Shown piece by piece: positions 34,515-54,253 of a stretch of 64,000 bases of DNA. The stretch covers positions 434,001 to 498,000 of the forward strand of contig NZ_FOMD01000002.1 in assembly GCF_900112525.1 (NCBI RefSeq). Reading direction: 5' to 3'. Source of the stretch: Klenkia taihuensis (GTDB taxonomy: Bacteria; Actinomycetota; Actinomycetes; Mycobacteriales; Geodermatophilaceae). The first letter of the stretch is position 1. Every line of letters starts with the position of its first letter. The translations under genes were made by a program, and so were the position numbers. Below the pieces are notes generated by a model. That model did no database searches, had not been told where the DNA came from, and saw only the letters and a program-made list of their open reading frames with translations.

Positions 34515-35420
34515 GTGGACGTCGCGGGAGCAGCCGGGATCGCGCTGGGCGCGGCCGCCGACCTGGTGTTCGCCGACCCGCGGCGCGGGCACCCGGTCGC
34601 CGGCTTCGGCCGGGCGGCCGCGGCGCTGGAGCAGAGGACCTACCGCGACAGCCGGACGGCGGGGGCCCTGCACTGGGCGGCCTGCGTGGTCCCGGTCGCC
34701 GCGCTGGGGGTGGTCCTCCCGCACCGGGTGCTGGTCACCGCGGTGGCGACCTGGGCGGTGCTCGGGGGCACCTCGCTGGGCCGTGCGGGGACGCGGATGG
34801 ACGACCTGCTCGACGACCTGCCCGCGGCCCGCGCGCACCTGCCCACCCTGGCCGGCCGGGACCCGTCGTCGCTGGGCGGGGCCGAGCTGGTGCGGGCCAC
34901 CGTGGAGTCGGTCGCGGAGAACACCTCCGACGCCGCGGTGGCGCCGCTGGTGTGGGGCGCGGTGGCCGGGGTCCCGGGTCTGCTGGCCTACCGCGCGGTG
35001 AACACCCTCGACGCGATGGTCGGCTACCGGTCCGAGCGCTACGCCCGCTTCGGCTGGGCGTCGGCGCGGGCGGACGACGTCGCCAACTGGGTGCCGGCCC
35101 GGCTCACCGCCGCGCTGACCGTGGCGGTCGCCCCGCTGGTGGGCGGGTCGGCGTCCGGCGCGCTGGCCGCGTGGCGGCGGGACGGCGGCGCCCACCCCAG
35201 CCCGAACTCCGGCCGCTGCGAGGCCGCGGCCGCGGGCGCGCTCGGCGTCCGGCTGGGCGGGCGCAACGTCTACGGCACCCGGGTGGAGGACCGGCCCACG
35301 ATGGGCGACGGCGAGCCACCGGTCCGCGCCGACATCGGCCGGGCGGTCGCGCTGTCGCGGGCGGTGTGGACGGCGGCTGCCGCCCTCGCGGTCACCGCCC
35401 GCCTCCTCCGCCGCCGGTAG
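34515..35420 (+). CDS. cobD: adenosylcobinamide-phosphate synthase CobD/CbiB
   Basis: 301 residues, membrane protein. It attaches aminopropanol (or its phosphate) to adenosylcobyric acid. Family motifs VESVAENTSDAAVAPLVWGA, NTLDAMVGYRSERYARFGW, HPSPNSGRCEAAAAGAL and RPTMGD are all visible. The GTG at 34515 starts VDVAGAAGIALGAAADLVFAD; a TTG six codons upstream is an alternative. A decayed palindromic repeat follows the stop by 11 bases. Confidence 0.94.
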   Translation: MDVAGAAGIALGAAADLVFADPRRGHPVAGFGRAAAALEQRTYRDSRTAGALHWAACVVPVAALGVVLPHRVLVTAVATWAVLGGTSLGRAGTRMDDLLDDLPAARAHLPTLAGRDPSSLGGAELVRATVESVAENTSDAAVAPLVWGAVAGVPGLLAYRAVNTLDAMVGYRSERYARFGWASARADDVANWVPARLTAALTVAVAPLVGGSASGALAAWRRDGGAHPSPNSGRCEAAAAGALGVRLGGRNVYGTRVEDRPTMGDGEPPVRADIGRAVALSRAVWTAAAALAVTARLLRRR

Positions 35421-35431
35421 GGCCCAGCGTC

Positions 35432-35515
35432 GATCAGGTCCCCTGGTCGAACTCCGTCCTCCCTCACCAGATCTGGTGCAGGAGGCCGGACGTGGATCAG
35501 GGGGGTTGATCGACG
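35432..35515. repeat. palindromic repeat, copy A (decayed)
   Basis: About 84 bases centred on AGATCT (35469-35474). In reverse complement it reads CGTCCGGCCTCCTGCACCAG, then ATCTGGTG, GGAGGACGGAGTTCGACCAG and CCTGATCGACG. That closely matches copy B at 53814-53893. The arms have lost perfect pairing by small changes. It lies between the cobD stop and the small membrane protein gene. Confidence 0.8.
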
Positions 35516-35534
35516 TCCGGGCCGGCTGGGCTGG

Positions 35535-35759
35535 TCAGTGCCGGACCGGGCGGAGGCGGTGCAGGGTCACCGGCCGCCGCGGGGTGCGGGCGGGTGCGGC
35601 GCCGCGGCGGTGCAGGACGCCGCGGGGTGCGGGCCAGCCGGCGCCCGGGTGGCTGCGCGGCGGGTCGGCCGGGCCGCGCCCACCGCGCAGGGTGACCACC
35701 AGCGTCGCGACCAGCAGCGCGAGCAGGACCAGCAGGACGAGGACTCCACCGGGGTTCAT
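35535..35759 (-). CDS. hypothetical small single-span membrane protein
   Basis: 74 residues. One strongly hydrophobic span (VLVLLVLLALLVATLVVTL) at the N-terminus is followed by a basic, Pro- and Arg-rich tail. No family is recognised. It is divergent from the MocR regulator gene with about 50-60 bases between. That layout often means regulator and target, but this is inference. Coding status is moderately supported by the clean N-terminal span after a Met. Confidence 0.5.
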   Translation of the reverse strand: MNPGGVLVLLVLLALLVATLVVTLRGGRGPADPPRSHPGAGWPAPRGVLHRRGAAPARTPRRPVTLHRLRPVRH

Positions 35760-35780
35760 GGCACCACCGTGGCAGCGGGT

Positions 35781-35802
35781 GGTCTGGTGCAGAACGGTCC
35801 AG
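35781..35802. promoter_or_regulatory. candidate MocR binding half-sites
   Basis: GGTCTGG (35781-35787) and GGTCCAG (35796-35802) are similar half-sites 15 bases apart in the divergent gap before the MocR gene. MocR regulators often bind such repeats in their own promoter. Confidence 0.3.
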
Positions 35803-35820
35803 TCGGGCATGGTGGACCGC

Positions 35821-37263
35821 ATGCCAGTGTCCACCGACCAGTCCACCCGGGCGCACGAGCTCGCCGCGCTGCTGGGCGCGCCGGGCGGCACCGGCCCCCG
35901 CTACGCCGCGCTGGCCGCCCGGGTGCAGGAGCTGCTGGGCACCGGCGCGCTCCCGGTGGGCACCCGGCTGCCGGCCGAGCGCGAGCTCGCCGAGGCCCTG
36001 GGTGTCAGCCGGGTGACCGTCGCCAGCGCCTACCGGACGCTCCGCGAGGAGGGCTACGCCCGCACCCGGCACGGCTCGGGCACCGTCACCGAGCTGCCGC
36101 ACGGCCCGGGCGTGGAGTGGCCGCTGCCCCGCGACGGCGACGGCGTGGTCAACCTGGCGCACGCCGCTCCCCCGGCGTCCCCGCACCTGCTGCCGGCCTA
36201 CACCCGCGCGCTGGAGCTGCTGCCCGGCGCGCTGGGCGACTCCGGCTACCACCCCGACGGGCTGCCGGCGCTGCGCCAGGCGGTCGCCGACCGGTTCAGC
36301 GCCCGCGGCCTGCCCACCGAGCCCGACCAGGTCGTCGTCACCGCCGGGGTGATGGACGCCGTCGGGCTGATCACCACCGCGCTGCTGTCCCCCGGCGACC
36401 GGGTGCTCATGGAGCACCCCACCTACCCCGGCGCCGTCCAGCTGGTCACCGACCTGGGCGCGGTCCCCGTGCCGGTGCCGGTCGACCCGGCCGACCCCGA
36501 CGCGCTGGTGCAGGCCGCGCACACCGCCGCCCGGCAGAGCGCGCCGCGGCTGGCGTACCTGATGCCCGACCACTCCAACCCCAGCGGCGCGACGCTGTCG
36601 GCCACCGGCCGCCGCAAGCTGGCCGCGACGCTGTGGCAGCAGGGCACGCTCACCCTGGTCGACGAGGTCACCACCGGCCTGCACCTGGACGAGGACGCCG
36701 CCGCCCCGCCGCCGTTCGCCGCCGGGGTGCCCGACGCCGCCACCGTCACCGTCGGCGGGCTGTCCAAGTCGGTCTGGGGTGGGCTGCGGGTGGGCTGGCT
36801 GCGCACGGACGCCGCCCTGGCCGCCCGGCTGGCCGACACCTACGGCCAGCGCCAGCTCACCGTCGGCGTGCTGGACCAGCTGACCGCCACCTTCCTCGTC
36901 GCCGACCTCGACCGGGTGCTCGCCGACCGCCGCACGGAGCTGCGCGCCGGCCACGACGTGCTGACCGCGGCGCTGGCCGAGCTGCTGCCGGACTGGTCGC
37001 CCTACCCGGCCACCGGCGGGCTGGCGACCTGGTGCCGGCTGCCGGCCGGGCTGAGCTCGGCGGCGCTGACCCGGGCCGCGCTGGTCGAGGGCGTCCGGGT
37101 CGCCGAGGGCCGGGCGTTCGGCACCGGCGCGGCCTTCGACGACCACCTGCGCCTGCCGTTCACCCGCCCGGCCGCGGAGGTCCGCGCCGCACTGGCCGTG
37201 CTGGCCCGGGTCGCCGACCGGCTGGCCGGCCGCGGCGGGTCGGCCCCGGTGCGGGCCGTCTGA
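35821..37263 (+). CDS. MocR-type regulator: GntR HTH fused to aminotransferase fold
   Basis: 480 residues. A winged GntR HTH comes first ([20 protein letters not shown], then [17 protein letters not shown]). A fold-type I PLP domain follows, with [40 protein letters not shown] and the PLP Lys in [15 protein letters not shown]. MocR proteins sense PLP or amino compounds and regulate neighbours. An in-frame ATG at 35809 would add four residues; neither has a clear ribosome site. Likely targets are its own promoter and the divergent small membrane protein. Confidence 0.9.
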
Positions 37264-49627: not shown

Positions 49628-49639
49628 GTCGCGGGCGTG

Positions 49640-49780
49640 GTGAGATGGTCCCGAACTGCGACGGCAGTGCAGGAAGCCGGTGCGACTCCGGCGCGGTCCC
49701 GCCACTGTCAGCCCCCCGGGGCGAGCCAGGAACTGCCGCCGTCGCCACCTGCCACCTCCGGGCGCGGACACCCGGGGAGA
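49640..49780 (+). ncRNA. cobalamin riboswitch upstream of the chelatase-cobOB operon
   Basis: The B12-element core is clear: GGAAGCCGGTGCGACTCC, GCGGTCCCGCCACTGTCAG (B12 box) and GCGAGCCAGGAACTGCC. A last hairpin, CTCCGGG (49756-49762) with CCCGGGGAG (49771-49779), covers the GGGGAGAGG ribosome site of the chelatase gene starting at 49790. This implies translational control by cobalamin. The platform is nearly identical to that of the cobN riboswitch. Confidence 0.93.
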
Positions 49781-51820: not shown

Positions 51821-52434
51821 TGCCGCAGGGACAGGTCACCGCGGTCCCGGTCGACGGGCTGACCACCAAGCAGCGCCGCAACCGGCCGCTGCTGGCGGTG
51901 CACACCGGGACGATGAAGGGCAAGTCCACCGCCGCGTTCGGGATGGCGCTGCGCGCGTGGAACCAGGGCTGGTCGATCGCGGTCTACCAGTTCGTCAAGA
52001 GCGCGAAGTGGAAGGTCGGCGAGGAGAACGTGCTGACCACCCTGGGCCGGGTGCACACCGAGACCGGTGAGGGCGGGCCGGTGGTCTGGCACAAGATGGG
52101 CTCGGGCTGGTCCTGGTCGCGCAAGCAGGGCGACGAGACCGACCACGCCGCCGACGCCGCCGAGGGCTGGGCCCAGATCAAGCGGGACCTCGCCGCGGAG
52201 GCGCACCGCTTCTACGTGCTCGACGAGTTCACCTACCCGATGAAGTGGGGCTGGGTCGACGTCGAGGACGTGGTCGAGACGATGCGCACCCGGCCGGGCA
52301 ACCAGCACGTGGTGATCACCGGGCGCGACGCCCACCCGGCGCTGGTCGAGGCGGCGGACCTGGTCGTGGAGATGACCAAGGTCAAGCACCCGATGGACGC
52401 CGGCCAGAAGGGCCAGCGGGGCATCGAGTGGTGA
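51820..52434 (+). CDS. cobO: cob(I)yrinic acid a,c-diamide adenosyltransferase CobO
   Basis: 204 residues, CobA/CobO/BtuR type. It transfers the adenosyl group of ATP to cob(I)yrinate. The reversed P-loop GTMKGKSTAAFGMALRAW and the Walker B-like VLDEFTYPMKWGWVD are present, as is the C-terminal MTKVKHPMDAGQKGQRGIEW. The first ~25 residues cover the corrin. The ATG shares a base with the chelatase stop, and its own stop overlaps cobB by GTGA. Confidence 0.96.
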   Translation: MPQGQVTAVPVDGLTTKQRRNRPLLAVHTGTMKGKSTAAFGMALRAWNQGWSIAVYQFVKSAKWKVGEENVLTTLGRVHTETGEGGPVVWHKMGSGWSWSRKQGDETDHAADAAEGWAQIKRDLAAEAHRFYVLDEFTYPMKWGWVDVEDVVETMRTRPGNQHVVITGRDAHPALVEAADLVVEMTKVKHPMDAGQKGQRGIEW

Positions 52435-53801
52435 GCATCCCGCGCGTCGTGCTGGCCGCGCCGTCGTCGAGCGCGGGCAAGACGTCGATCGCCACCGGGC
52501 TGATCGCCGCGCTCACCGACCGCGGGCTGGCGGTCTCCCCGCACAAGGTGGGCCCGGACTACATCGACCCGGGCTACCACTCGCTGGCCGCCGGGCGCCC
52601 GGGCCGCAACCTCGACAACTGGCTGGTCGGCGAGGAACGGATCGCGCCGCTGTTCCTGCACGGCGCCCGCGGCGCCGACGTCGCCGTGGTCGAGGGCGTG
52701 ATGGGCCTGTTCGACGGCGCCAGCCACCCCTCGGTCGAGCCCGGCTTCGGGTCCACCGCGCACGTGGCCACCCAGCTGCGGGCGCCGGTGGTCCTGGTGG
52801 TCGACGCCTCCGCGCAGGCCCGGAGCGTCGCCGCCGTCGTGCACGGGTTCGCCACCTTCGACCCCACCGTGCGGCTGGGCGGGGTGGTCCTCAACCGGGT
52901 CGGGTCCGACCGGCACGAGGCGATCCTGCGCGAGGCGCTGGGGTCGGCGGGGGTGCCGGTGCTGGGCGCGGTCCGCCGGATCGCCGACCTGGAGACGCCG
53001 TCCCGCCACCTCGGGCTGGTGCCCGCCGCCGAGCGGTCGGCCGAGGCGGTGCGCACCGTGCGCGCGCTGGGCGCCGTCGTCGGCTCGTCCGTCGACCTGG
53101 ACGCCGTCCTGCGGCTGGCCCGCAGCGCCCCCGACCTGGACGCGCAGCCGTGGGACCCGGCCGCGGAGGTCGAGCGGGTCGAGGGCCGGCCGGTGGTCGC
53201 CGTCGCCGGGGGACCCGCGTTCACCTTCGGCTACGCCGAGACCGCCGAGCTGCTGGCCGCCGCGGGCGCCGACGTCGTCACCGTGGACCCGCTGCGCGAC
53301 TCCGCGCTGCCCGCCGGCACCGCGGGCCTGGTGGTCGGCGGGGGCTTCCCCGAGGTGCACGCGTCGGCGCTGGCGGCCAACGTCGGGCTGCGGACGGCGA
53401 TCGCCGAGCTCGCGGCCTCGGGGGCGCCGGTCGCGGCCGAGTGCGCCGGGCTGCTCTACCTGGCCGGCGCGCTGGACGGCGAGCCGATGTGCGGGGTCCT
53501 CGACGCGCAGGCGGCGATGCACCCGCGGCTGACGCTGGGCTACCGCGCCGCGGTGGCGATGACCGACAGCGTGCTGGCCCCCGCGGGCACCCGGGTGCGC
53601 GGGCACGAGTTCCACCGCACCCGCACCTCCCCCGGCGCCGGGCCGACGCCGGCGTGGCAGTGGAGCGCCGACGGGCCGGAGGGGTTCGTGCAGGGCGGGG
53701 TGCACGCCTCCTACCTGCACCTGAACTGGGCCGGGTCGCCGCAGATGGCTTCGCGCTTCGTCGCCGCCGCGGCCCGGGCGCGTGCCGGGGTGCCCTCGTG
53801 A
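52431..53801 (+). CDS. cobB: hydrogenobyrinate/cobyrinate a,c-diamide synthase CobB
   Basis: 456 residues. It amidates carboxylates a and c with glutamine and ATP. The N-domain has APSSSAGKTSIATGLIAAL, VGPDYIDPGYHS and VEGVMGLFDGAS. The C-terminal GATase carries the Cys in AAECAGLLYLAGAL, and RGHEFHRT holds a conserved His. GTG start overlaps cobO; the stop overlaps the cobE start by GTGA. Confidence 0.95.
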   Translation: MSIPRVVLAAPSSSAGKTSIATGLIAALTDRGLAVSPHKVGPDYIDPGYHSLAAGRPGRNLDNWLVGEERIAPLFLHGARGADVAVVEGVMGLFDGASHPSVEPGFGSTAHVATQLRAPVVLVVDASAQARSVAAVVHGFATFDPTVRLGGVVLNRVGSDRHEAILREALGSAGVPVLGAVRRIADLETPSRHLGLVPAAERSAEAVRTVRALGAVVGSSVDLDAVLRLARSAPDLDAQPWDPAAEVERVEGRPVVAVAGGPAFTFGYAETAELLAAAGADVVTVDPLRDSALPAGTAGLVVGGGFPEVHASALAANVGLRTAIAELAASGAPVAAECAGLLYLAGALDGEPMCGVLDAQAAMHPRLTLGYRAAVAMTDSVLAPAGTRVRGHEFHRTRTSPGAGPTPAWQWSADGPEGFVQGGVHASYLHLNWAGSPQMASRFVAAAARARAGVPS

Positions 53802-54253
53802 CCGCGCAGCCTGGATCAGGGGACCTGATCGACGTCCGTCCTCCTGCACCAGATCTGGTGCAGGAGGACGGAGTTCGACCAACCTCCCTGATCAACGCTG
53901 AGCAGGAGGTCGTGGTCGGGGTCGGGGCGCGGCCGGGGGTGAGCGCCGACCTCGTGCTGGCCGCCGTCGACGCCGTGCTGCCGGCCGGCGCCCGGGTGCG
54001 GGCGCTGGCCACCGTGGACCGGCGCGCGGCCGAGCCCGGGGTGCGCGACGCCGCCGCCGCGCGGGGCTGGCCGCTGGTCGCGTTCCCGGTCGAGGCGCTC
54101 GCCGCGGTCCCCGTGCCGTCGGTCTCGGCCCGGGTCGCCGCCGCGCTGGGCACGCCCTCGGTCGCCGAGGCCGCCGCGCTCGCCGACGGCGGCCGGCTGG
54201 TGGTGCCCAAGACCGTCCGCGGTCCGGTCACCGTGGCCGTCGCGGCGCCGTGA
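53798..54253 (+). CDS. cobE: cobalamin biosynthesis protein CobE (CbiG C-terminal domain) with a repeat-derived N-terminus
   Basis: 151 residues. From about residue 39 on it is a CobE/CbiG-C domain: VVGVGARPGVSADLVLAAVD, AGARVRALATVDRRAAEPGV, ARGWPLVAFPVEAL and VAEAAALADGGRLVVPKTV. CobE is needed in aerobic B12 synthesis but its step is unclear; it may assist at the CobJ/CobM stage. Residues 6-32 (GSGDLIDVRPPAPDL and onward) are the translation of palindromic repeat copy B. The GTG at 53798 overlaps the cobB stop; an in-frame GTG at 53912 lies past the repeat but only 2 bases from AGGAGG. Confidence 0.82.
   Translation: MTAQPGSGDLIDVRPPAPDLVQEDGVRPTSLINAEQEVVVGVGARPGVSADLVLAAVDAVLPAGARVRALATVDRRAAEPGVRDAAAARGWPLVAFPVEALAAVPVPSVSARVAAALGTPSVAEAAALADGGRLVVPKTVRGPVTVAVAAP
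53814..53893. repeat. palindromic repeat, copy B, read in frame inside cobE
   Basis: An 80-base element with a perfect 38-base palindrome at its core (53835-53872, centred on AGATCT, arms TCCGTCCTCCTGCACCAGA). The outer parts, GATCAGG...CTGATCGACG and GTTCGACC...CTGATC, also mirror each other loosely. It closely matches copy A at 35432-35515. It falls after the fifth codon of cobE and keeps the frame open. Confidence 0.88.

Follow-up and report, generated by a model that had tools for sequence, protein, structure and literature searches.

The cobB/cobE junction of Klenkia taihuensis

In the window, that is, the whole 64,000-nucleotide stretch of K. taihuensis DNA that was analysed, cobE follows cobB so closely that the stop codon of the one overlaps the GTG start codon of the other (Table 1). 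A palindromic element lies immediately behind this overlap and, in the cobE frame, spans 31 codons. A preliminary description of this DNA had already pointed to the stop-start overlap and to a perfect 38-base palindrome behind it, and both were confirmed. The element around the palindrome is also real, but it is 94 bp long and not the 80 bases (53814-53893) first assigned to it; it is in frame, yet it begins at codon 4 and not after codon 5. The earlier estimate of about 27 extra residues has to be replaced, since the element alone covers 31 codons and the whole N-terminal extension ahead of the Pfam CbiG_C domain amounts to 37 residues. The CobE sequences found with solved structures (PDB 3by5, 2w6k and 2w6l) can be aligned only from residue 38 onward.

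The symmetry axis of the element falls between positions 53853 and 53854, and Watson-Crick pairs are formed at 38 of 47 positions. Its two ends also pair with each other across the 94 bp, so that they constitute terminal inverted repeats. The covariance model matches it once on each strand, with scores of 95.0 and 87.9 bits, this copy being one of the 28 from which the model was built. As RNA, the element is predicted to fold with -64.5 kcal/mol against -30.7 +/- 3.1 in shuffled sequences (z = -10.8), and none of 200 shuffles folded as well. No Rfam family reaches its gathering score over the element; a known structured RNA was rejected as its identity, the 29 sub-threshold matches consisting of 28 microRNA hairpins and one mraW match below the cut-off. 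An intrinsic terminator with a U-tract was likewise rejected: the G+C-rich hairpin is present, but no terminator-like site is found in 53600-54100. Elsewhere in the window, a cobalamin riboswitch (RF00174, 43.3 bits) lies at 49629-49757 on the forward strand, upstream of the cob genes.

Table 1. Features of the cobB/cobE junction and a second copy of the repeat, in window coordinates
Feature	Position	Strand	Basis and remarks
Palindromic element, A-core-A' form, 94 bp	53807..53900	none	Sequence and covariance-model match; cobE codons 4-34
Perfect 38-bp palindrome around core CTGCACCAGATCTGGTGCAG	53835..53872	none	Sequence
cobB	52431..53801	+	CbiA and GATase_3 domains; start at 52431 assumed
GTGA overlap of cobE GTG and cobB stop	53798..53801	+	cobB TGA at 53799-53801; NTGA overlaps also in relatives
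cobE open frame	53798..54253	+	GTG start, 151 aa, stop at 54251-54253
GGA codon, arm positions 7-9	53813..53815	+	TGA here in 39/58 other type-1 arms
CobE domain CbiG_C (PF01890), residues 38-149	53909..54244	+	Pfam
Alternative in-frame GTG, residue 39	53912..53914	+	AGGAGG at 53904-53909, 2 nt upstream
Second copy of the repeat family	35425..35518	none	Covariance model; adjoins + ORF ending at 35420 and - ORF 35535-35891

A dispersed palindromic repeat in Klenkia

The suspicion that the palindrome is a repeat was borne out. With up to three mismatches allowed, the core CTGCACCAGATCTGGTGCAG occurs at 30 places in the 4.3-Mb genome, against none for the reversed control, and the covariance model gives 81 strand matches, which merge into 41 sites of a dispersed family. 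A weak match of 37.5 bits defines one of these sites (L296), whose assignment to a position between convergent genes is doubtful. One of the 30 core matches (L026) lies inside a coding frame, has no covariance-model match and was excluded from the 41 sites; its 20-mer also recurs in other genera. When 150 candidates per genome were scored, matches to the model were found in all nine Klenkia genomes, at 27 to 88 strand matches each. Each copy is built from modules: first an outer arm A (CAGCGTTGATCAGGG...TTGATCGA in the consensus), then the core hairpin, and last a half-core repeat or, in copies such as that of cobE, another A arm. A sister core, type 2, has the form GTCCTGGCTCACC-GNCGNC-GGTGAGCCAGGAC and is embedded in the same architecture as type 1. 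In an order-wide draw of genomes, the type-2 core was found in 22 of 51 Geodermatophilaceae, and outside the family in only 1 of 247, at a single site. The type-1 core was searched for within Geodermatophilaceae, where outside Klenkia it is mostly no commoner than its reversed control; a few genomes have more, up to six places in G084. The only mobilising enzyme sought was the Y1 transposase (RAYT, Y1_Tnp, PF01797), and it was found in none of the nine Klenkia genomes, while 5 of 14 control genomes were positive. The family is thus REP-like, seen almost only in Geodermatophilaceae, and without a RAYT.

Gene contexts were assigned with a codon score devised for this analysis, for which long open reading frames of the window served as the training set. 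By this score, 25 of the 41 sites of this genome are between convergent genes, seven are between co-directional genes (cobE among them), eight are unclear and one is gene-interior; these are raw counts. Among 30 sampled sites in other genera, 12 are between convergent genes. Copies between convergent genes would probably act as two-way hairpins at the 3' ends of both transcripts. At three sites (L018:1150-1243, L009:1106-1199 and L286:1022-1115) the frame on the upstream side ends at a TGA of the A arm, 41 nt short of the centre of the copy, so that the repeat seems to supply the stop codon of the upstream gene. The second copy in the window has a context scored as unclear (0.31 and 0.25); the forward frame ending just before it resembles CobD/CbiB by eye.

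Protein-internal copies make up 2 of the 41 sites. The one besides cobE (L028:1073-1166, genome position G000:C7:841572-841665) is placed in frame within an open frame of 546 aa (L028:724-2361), whose product matches no Pfam family at E <= 1. The two genes read the element in different frames, frame 0 in cobE and frame 2 in this gene. The insertion is shared with G081, and the gene is found without it in G076, G078, G079, G080 and G083, the comparison covering neither G077 (best match 39% identical) nor G082 (partial match). In the alignment the empty site corresponds to a gap of about 70 nt. Inspection of the empty site in G076, where the orthologous proteins are 86% identical, gave no clear target-site duplication by eye. 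In the cobB tree, the branching order of this genome, G076 and G081 is not firm. Since empty sites of this insertion survive in relatives, the birth, choice of frame and fate of such an insertion can be studied within one genus.

Several known systems resemble this family. Rickettsia palindromic elements (RPE) are described in two papers as in-frame fusions within protein genes (PMC2229807, PMC10969869), and protein-coding palindromes of Wolbachia appear as a cited title in the same papers. Like an RPE as portrayed there, the Klenkia repeat is a dispersed palindrome of about 100 bp found both between genes and in frame in unrelated protein genes, and the copies in cobE and in the L028 gene are absent from orthologues. 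The likeness to Rickettsia proposed in the preliminary description is strengthened by this second in-frame insertion, as a likeness of description. The Klenkia repeat differs from the RPE in its actinobacterial host, in being mostly intergenic, with 2 of 41 sites inside proteins, and in the use of two reading frames. REP sequences are reported to be frequent between convergent genes and at the 3' ends of genes (PMC1525189), and those of Escherichia coli to measure 14-40 nt (PMC12306157). The Klenkia palindromes are dispersed in the same kinds of places as REP or BIME sequences; however, the element is 94 bp long, it has coding copies, and a RAYT-driven REP is ruled out by the lack of PF01797 in the nine genomes. 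With MITEs, for which in-frame fusions are on record (PMC10969869), the element shares its short length and long terminal inverted repeats, whereas no target-site duplication was recognised and no parent transposase identified (PF01797 being what was sought). No earlier description of such a repeat in Geodermatophilaceae was found by title or abstract opening in the open-licence literature, and in the accessible part of a family-level genome paper (PMC9686282) the string 'palindrom' occurs only within the name CRISPR. If the tail of CobE is translated, an actinobacterial genus would harbour a family of protein-inserted palindromes, and the incorporation of repeat DNA into proteins would then seem to extend beyond the bacteria in which it was originally noticed.

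The cobE copy in related genomes

Among 112 genomes of the family, 95 yielded a cobE; 93 loci were read and 89 could be classified. In 77 of the 89 no more than 20 nt separate the upstream stop codon from the CobE domain, and the usual arrangement is an NTGA overlap. The element is present in six of the 89, all from Klenkia (this genome, G076, G077, G078, G081 and G083), and the other 83 are without it. Among these loci the extra residues are confined to the carriers of the palindrome, so that the case named in the preliminary description as refuting it, in which all close homologues have the residues but no palindrome in their DNA, does not occur. An alignment of 17 CobE proteins, in which G077 and G081 are not included, has the extension in four Klenkia rows and lacks it in 13 others. 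Because the insertion is common to six Klenkia species, it is not recent. Altogether, the evidence supports the view that a palindromic repeat of Geodermatophilaceae entered cobE in frame long ago, as one of two protein insertions among the 41 sites.

Three different repeat families occur at the cobE junction. Of the six remaining classifiable loci, L041, L231 and L227 have a different spacer at the junction, with a sequence that resembles TGACCGAGC..GCGAGGTCACGCA, a repeat dispersed in other genera; this repeat is found in 73 of the 112 family genomes, and some of its copies stand in arrays with a spacing of 74-77 nt. In G079, G080 and G082 (L060, L061 and L063) the overlap is kept, and the frame before cobE has a C-terminus made by yet another dispersed hairpin, GGAAGCTCTACACCCCCT. 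The stop-start overlap of cobE in L208 (G034) is part of a tandem repeat with the unit gccgacatgacggt. Two further loci, L186 and L193, were judged to be doubtful frame calls because an overlap-like start is visible beside the domain. At seven loci (L049, L052, L058, L048, L053, L037 and L056) the open frame of cobE extends to about 460-530 aa, which may reflect fusion to a downstream gene or merely a long frame.

The length and frame of the element are strictly kept among its carriers. In all six species it is exactly 94 nt long and open in the same frame (frame 0), while the distance from the start codon to the VVG of the domain is 114, 114, 123, 108, 153 and 108 nt. By parsimony, and counted by eye, at least six length changes occurred in the flanks, at least two on the 5' side and four on the 3' side, and all are multiples of three. 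Around orthologous intergenic copies the spacing differs in 20 comparisons, and only 5 of these differences are divisible by three (Fisher p = 0.002 against cobE), a control that was transcribed by hand and in which several changes come from one locus and are not independent. Stop codons give a further indication. In the frame used by cobE, arm positions 7-9 read TGA in 39 of 58 other type-1 arms as compared with 2 of 38 type-2 arms; none of the six cobE 5' arms has it, and the unread 3' arms of cobE in this genome, G076 and G081 do. As type-2 arms rarely carry TGA, its lack in the 5' arms may reflect ancestry.

The amino-acid sequence itself seems to be free to vary. Between this genome and G076, substitutions at the first, second and third codon positions number 5/4/4 in the element and 3/2/24 in the domain; between this genome and G078 the element has 11/10/10. 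The divergence of the cobE element, 13 of 94 positions (ungapped), is like that of intergenic copies, which show 3-26 differences in ten others. This lack of codon-position bias means that the tail is tolerated rather than selected, or else untranslated.

Matched arms and the reading of the CobE tail

The two arms of a copy resemble each other more than they resemble the arms of other copies. The comparison took in 113 copies of six genomes and left aside three that are off-centre or weak (L307:1020 of G083, and L293 and L296 of this genome). Inner arms belonging to the same copy have an identity of 90.3%, compared with 78.3% (sd 1.0) for shuffled partners and 85.5% (sd 0.6) for partners shuffled inside a genome. 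Pairing holds for 82.6% of cells in the cobE set, compared with 79.2 (sd 1.4) in shuffles, and 18 cells of the hairpin are doubly changed against 12.2 (sd 2.4); counted as pairs with a double change there is no excess (9, and 9.6 in shuffles). Core types also differ between species at orthologous places, for example at L012 and L015 with respect to G077 and at L009:1501 with respect to G081. The cobE copies behave alike: the core is of type 2, CCTGG(C/T)TC(A/G)CC-type, in G077, G078 and G083, and of type 1, CCTCCTGCACC, in this genome, and the arms are mixed in G076 and G081. A template-switch model offers a route to matched palindrome arms. Both the matching of arms and the changes of core type would be accounted for by template switching inside single copies or by conversion of one copy by another. 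On this basis it is conceivable, though we hold it only tentatively, that the tail of CobE is written by DNA mechanics, the arms being kept matched and rewritten in place between subfamily types, several codons together, with selection acting on the frame only. Because the core differs between species at the same loci, even in coding sequence, a direct test of how palindromes stay perfect is at hand.

Taken together, these observations make it probable that a non-autonomous repeat of Geodermatophilaceae was inserted just after the start codon of cobE in an ancestor of the six Klenkia species, and that it is now read as an unconstrained tail of CobE. As the inserted copy was free of stops in the cobE frame, its arrival would have left the gene intact and lengthened the product by about 31 residues. 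After completing cobB, ribosomes may start again at the overlapping GTG and pass through the hairpin, which would give a product made up of an N-terminal tail and the normal domain. What would be kept is the frame, since any frameshift or stop codon would sever CobE from the start to which it is coupled, and not the amino-acid sequence; the palindrome would persist because the two arms of each copy stay matched at the DNA level, a pattern that is seen here and whose mechanism we infer.

The main rival is that the element is an untranslated intercistronic spacer, that CobE is made from GTG 53912, and that the hairpin acts on processing, stability or termination of the mRNA. Such a spacer would fit with the absence of codon-position bias, with the AGGAGG just 5' of that GTG, with an in-frame GTG at or soon after the end of the element in all six species, and with a repeat family that is mostly intergenic. 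Against it, frame and openness have been retained in six species through several length changes; moreover, by eye no consistent Shine-Dalgarno sequence precedes the later GTG (the spacing here is 2 nt), this GTG overlaps the hairpin end in G078, and the usual start of cobE in the family is the stop-start overlap. We therefore regard the spacer as unlikely. Judged from these genomic comparisons, translation of the tail from the overlap GTG 53798 rather than from 53912 is likely, favoured by the conserved and open frame, by length changes in threes and by the missing TGA in the 5' arms; the absent codon-position bias and a divergence like that of intergenic copies count against it, and we read the tail as probably translated yet unconstrained.

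The hairpin could also be a selected regulatory device, either one through whose translation the level of CobE is set relative to CobB or one whose translation prevents a terminator from acting on the downstream cob genes. The very stable fold, the cobalamin riboswitch in the cob region, the retention of the palindrome in six species and the different dispersed hairpin at the same boundary in G079, G080 and G082 are consistent with such a role. Nevertheless, the cobE element has no U-tract terminator, the matching of arms is general to dispersed copies, and 83 of 89 classifiable loci manage without the element, all of which makes this role improbable. That the palindrome arose by chance or by convergent evolution of the CobE N-terminus, with no insertion of a repeat, is scarcely credible in the face of 41 family sites in the genome, a reversed control of zero and the empty junctions of other genera.
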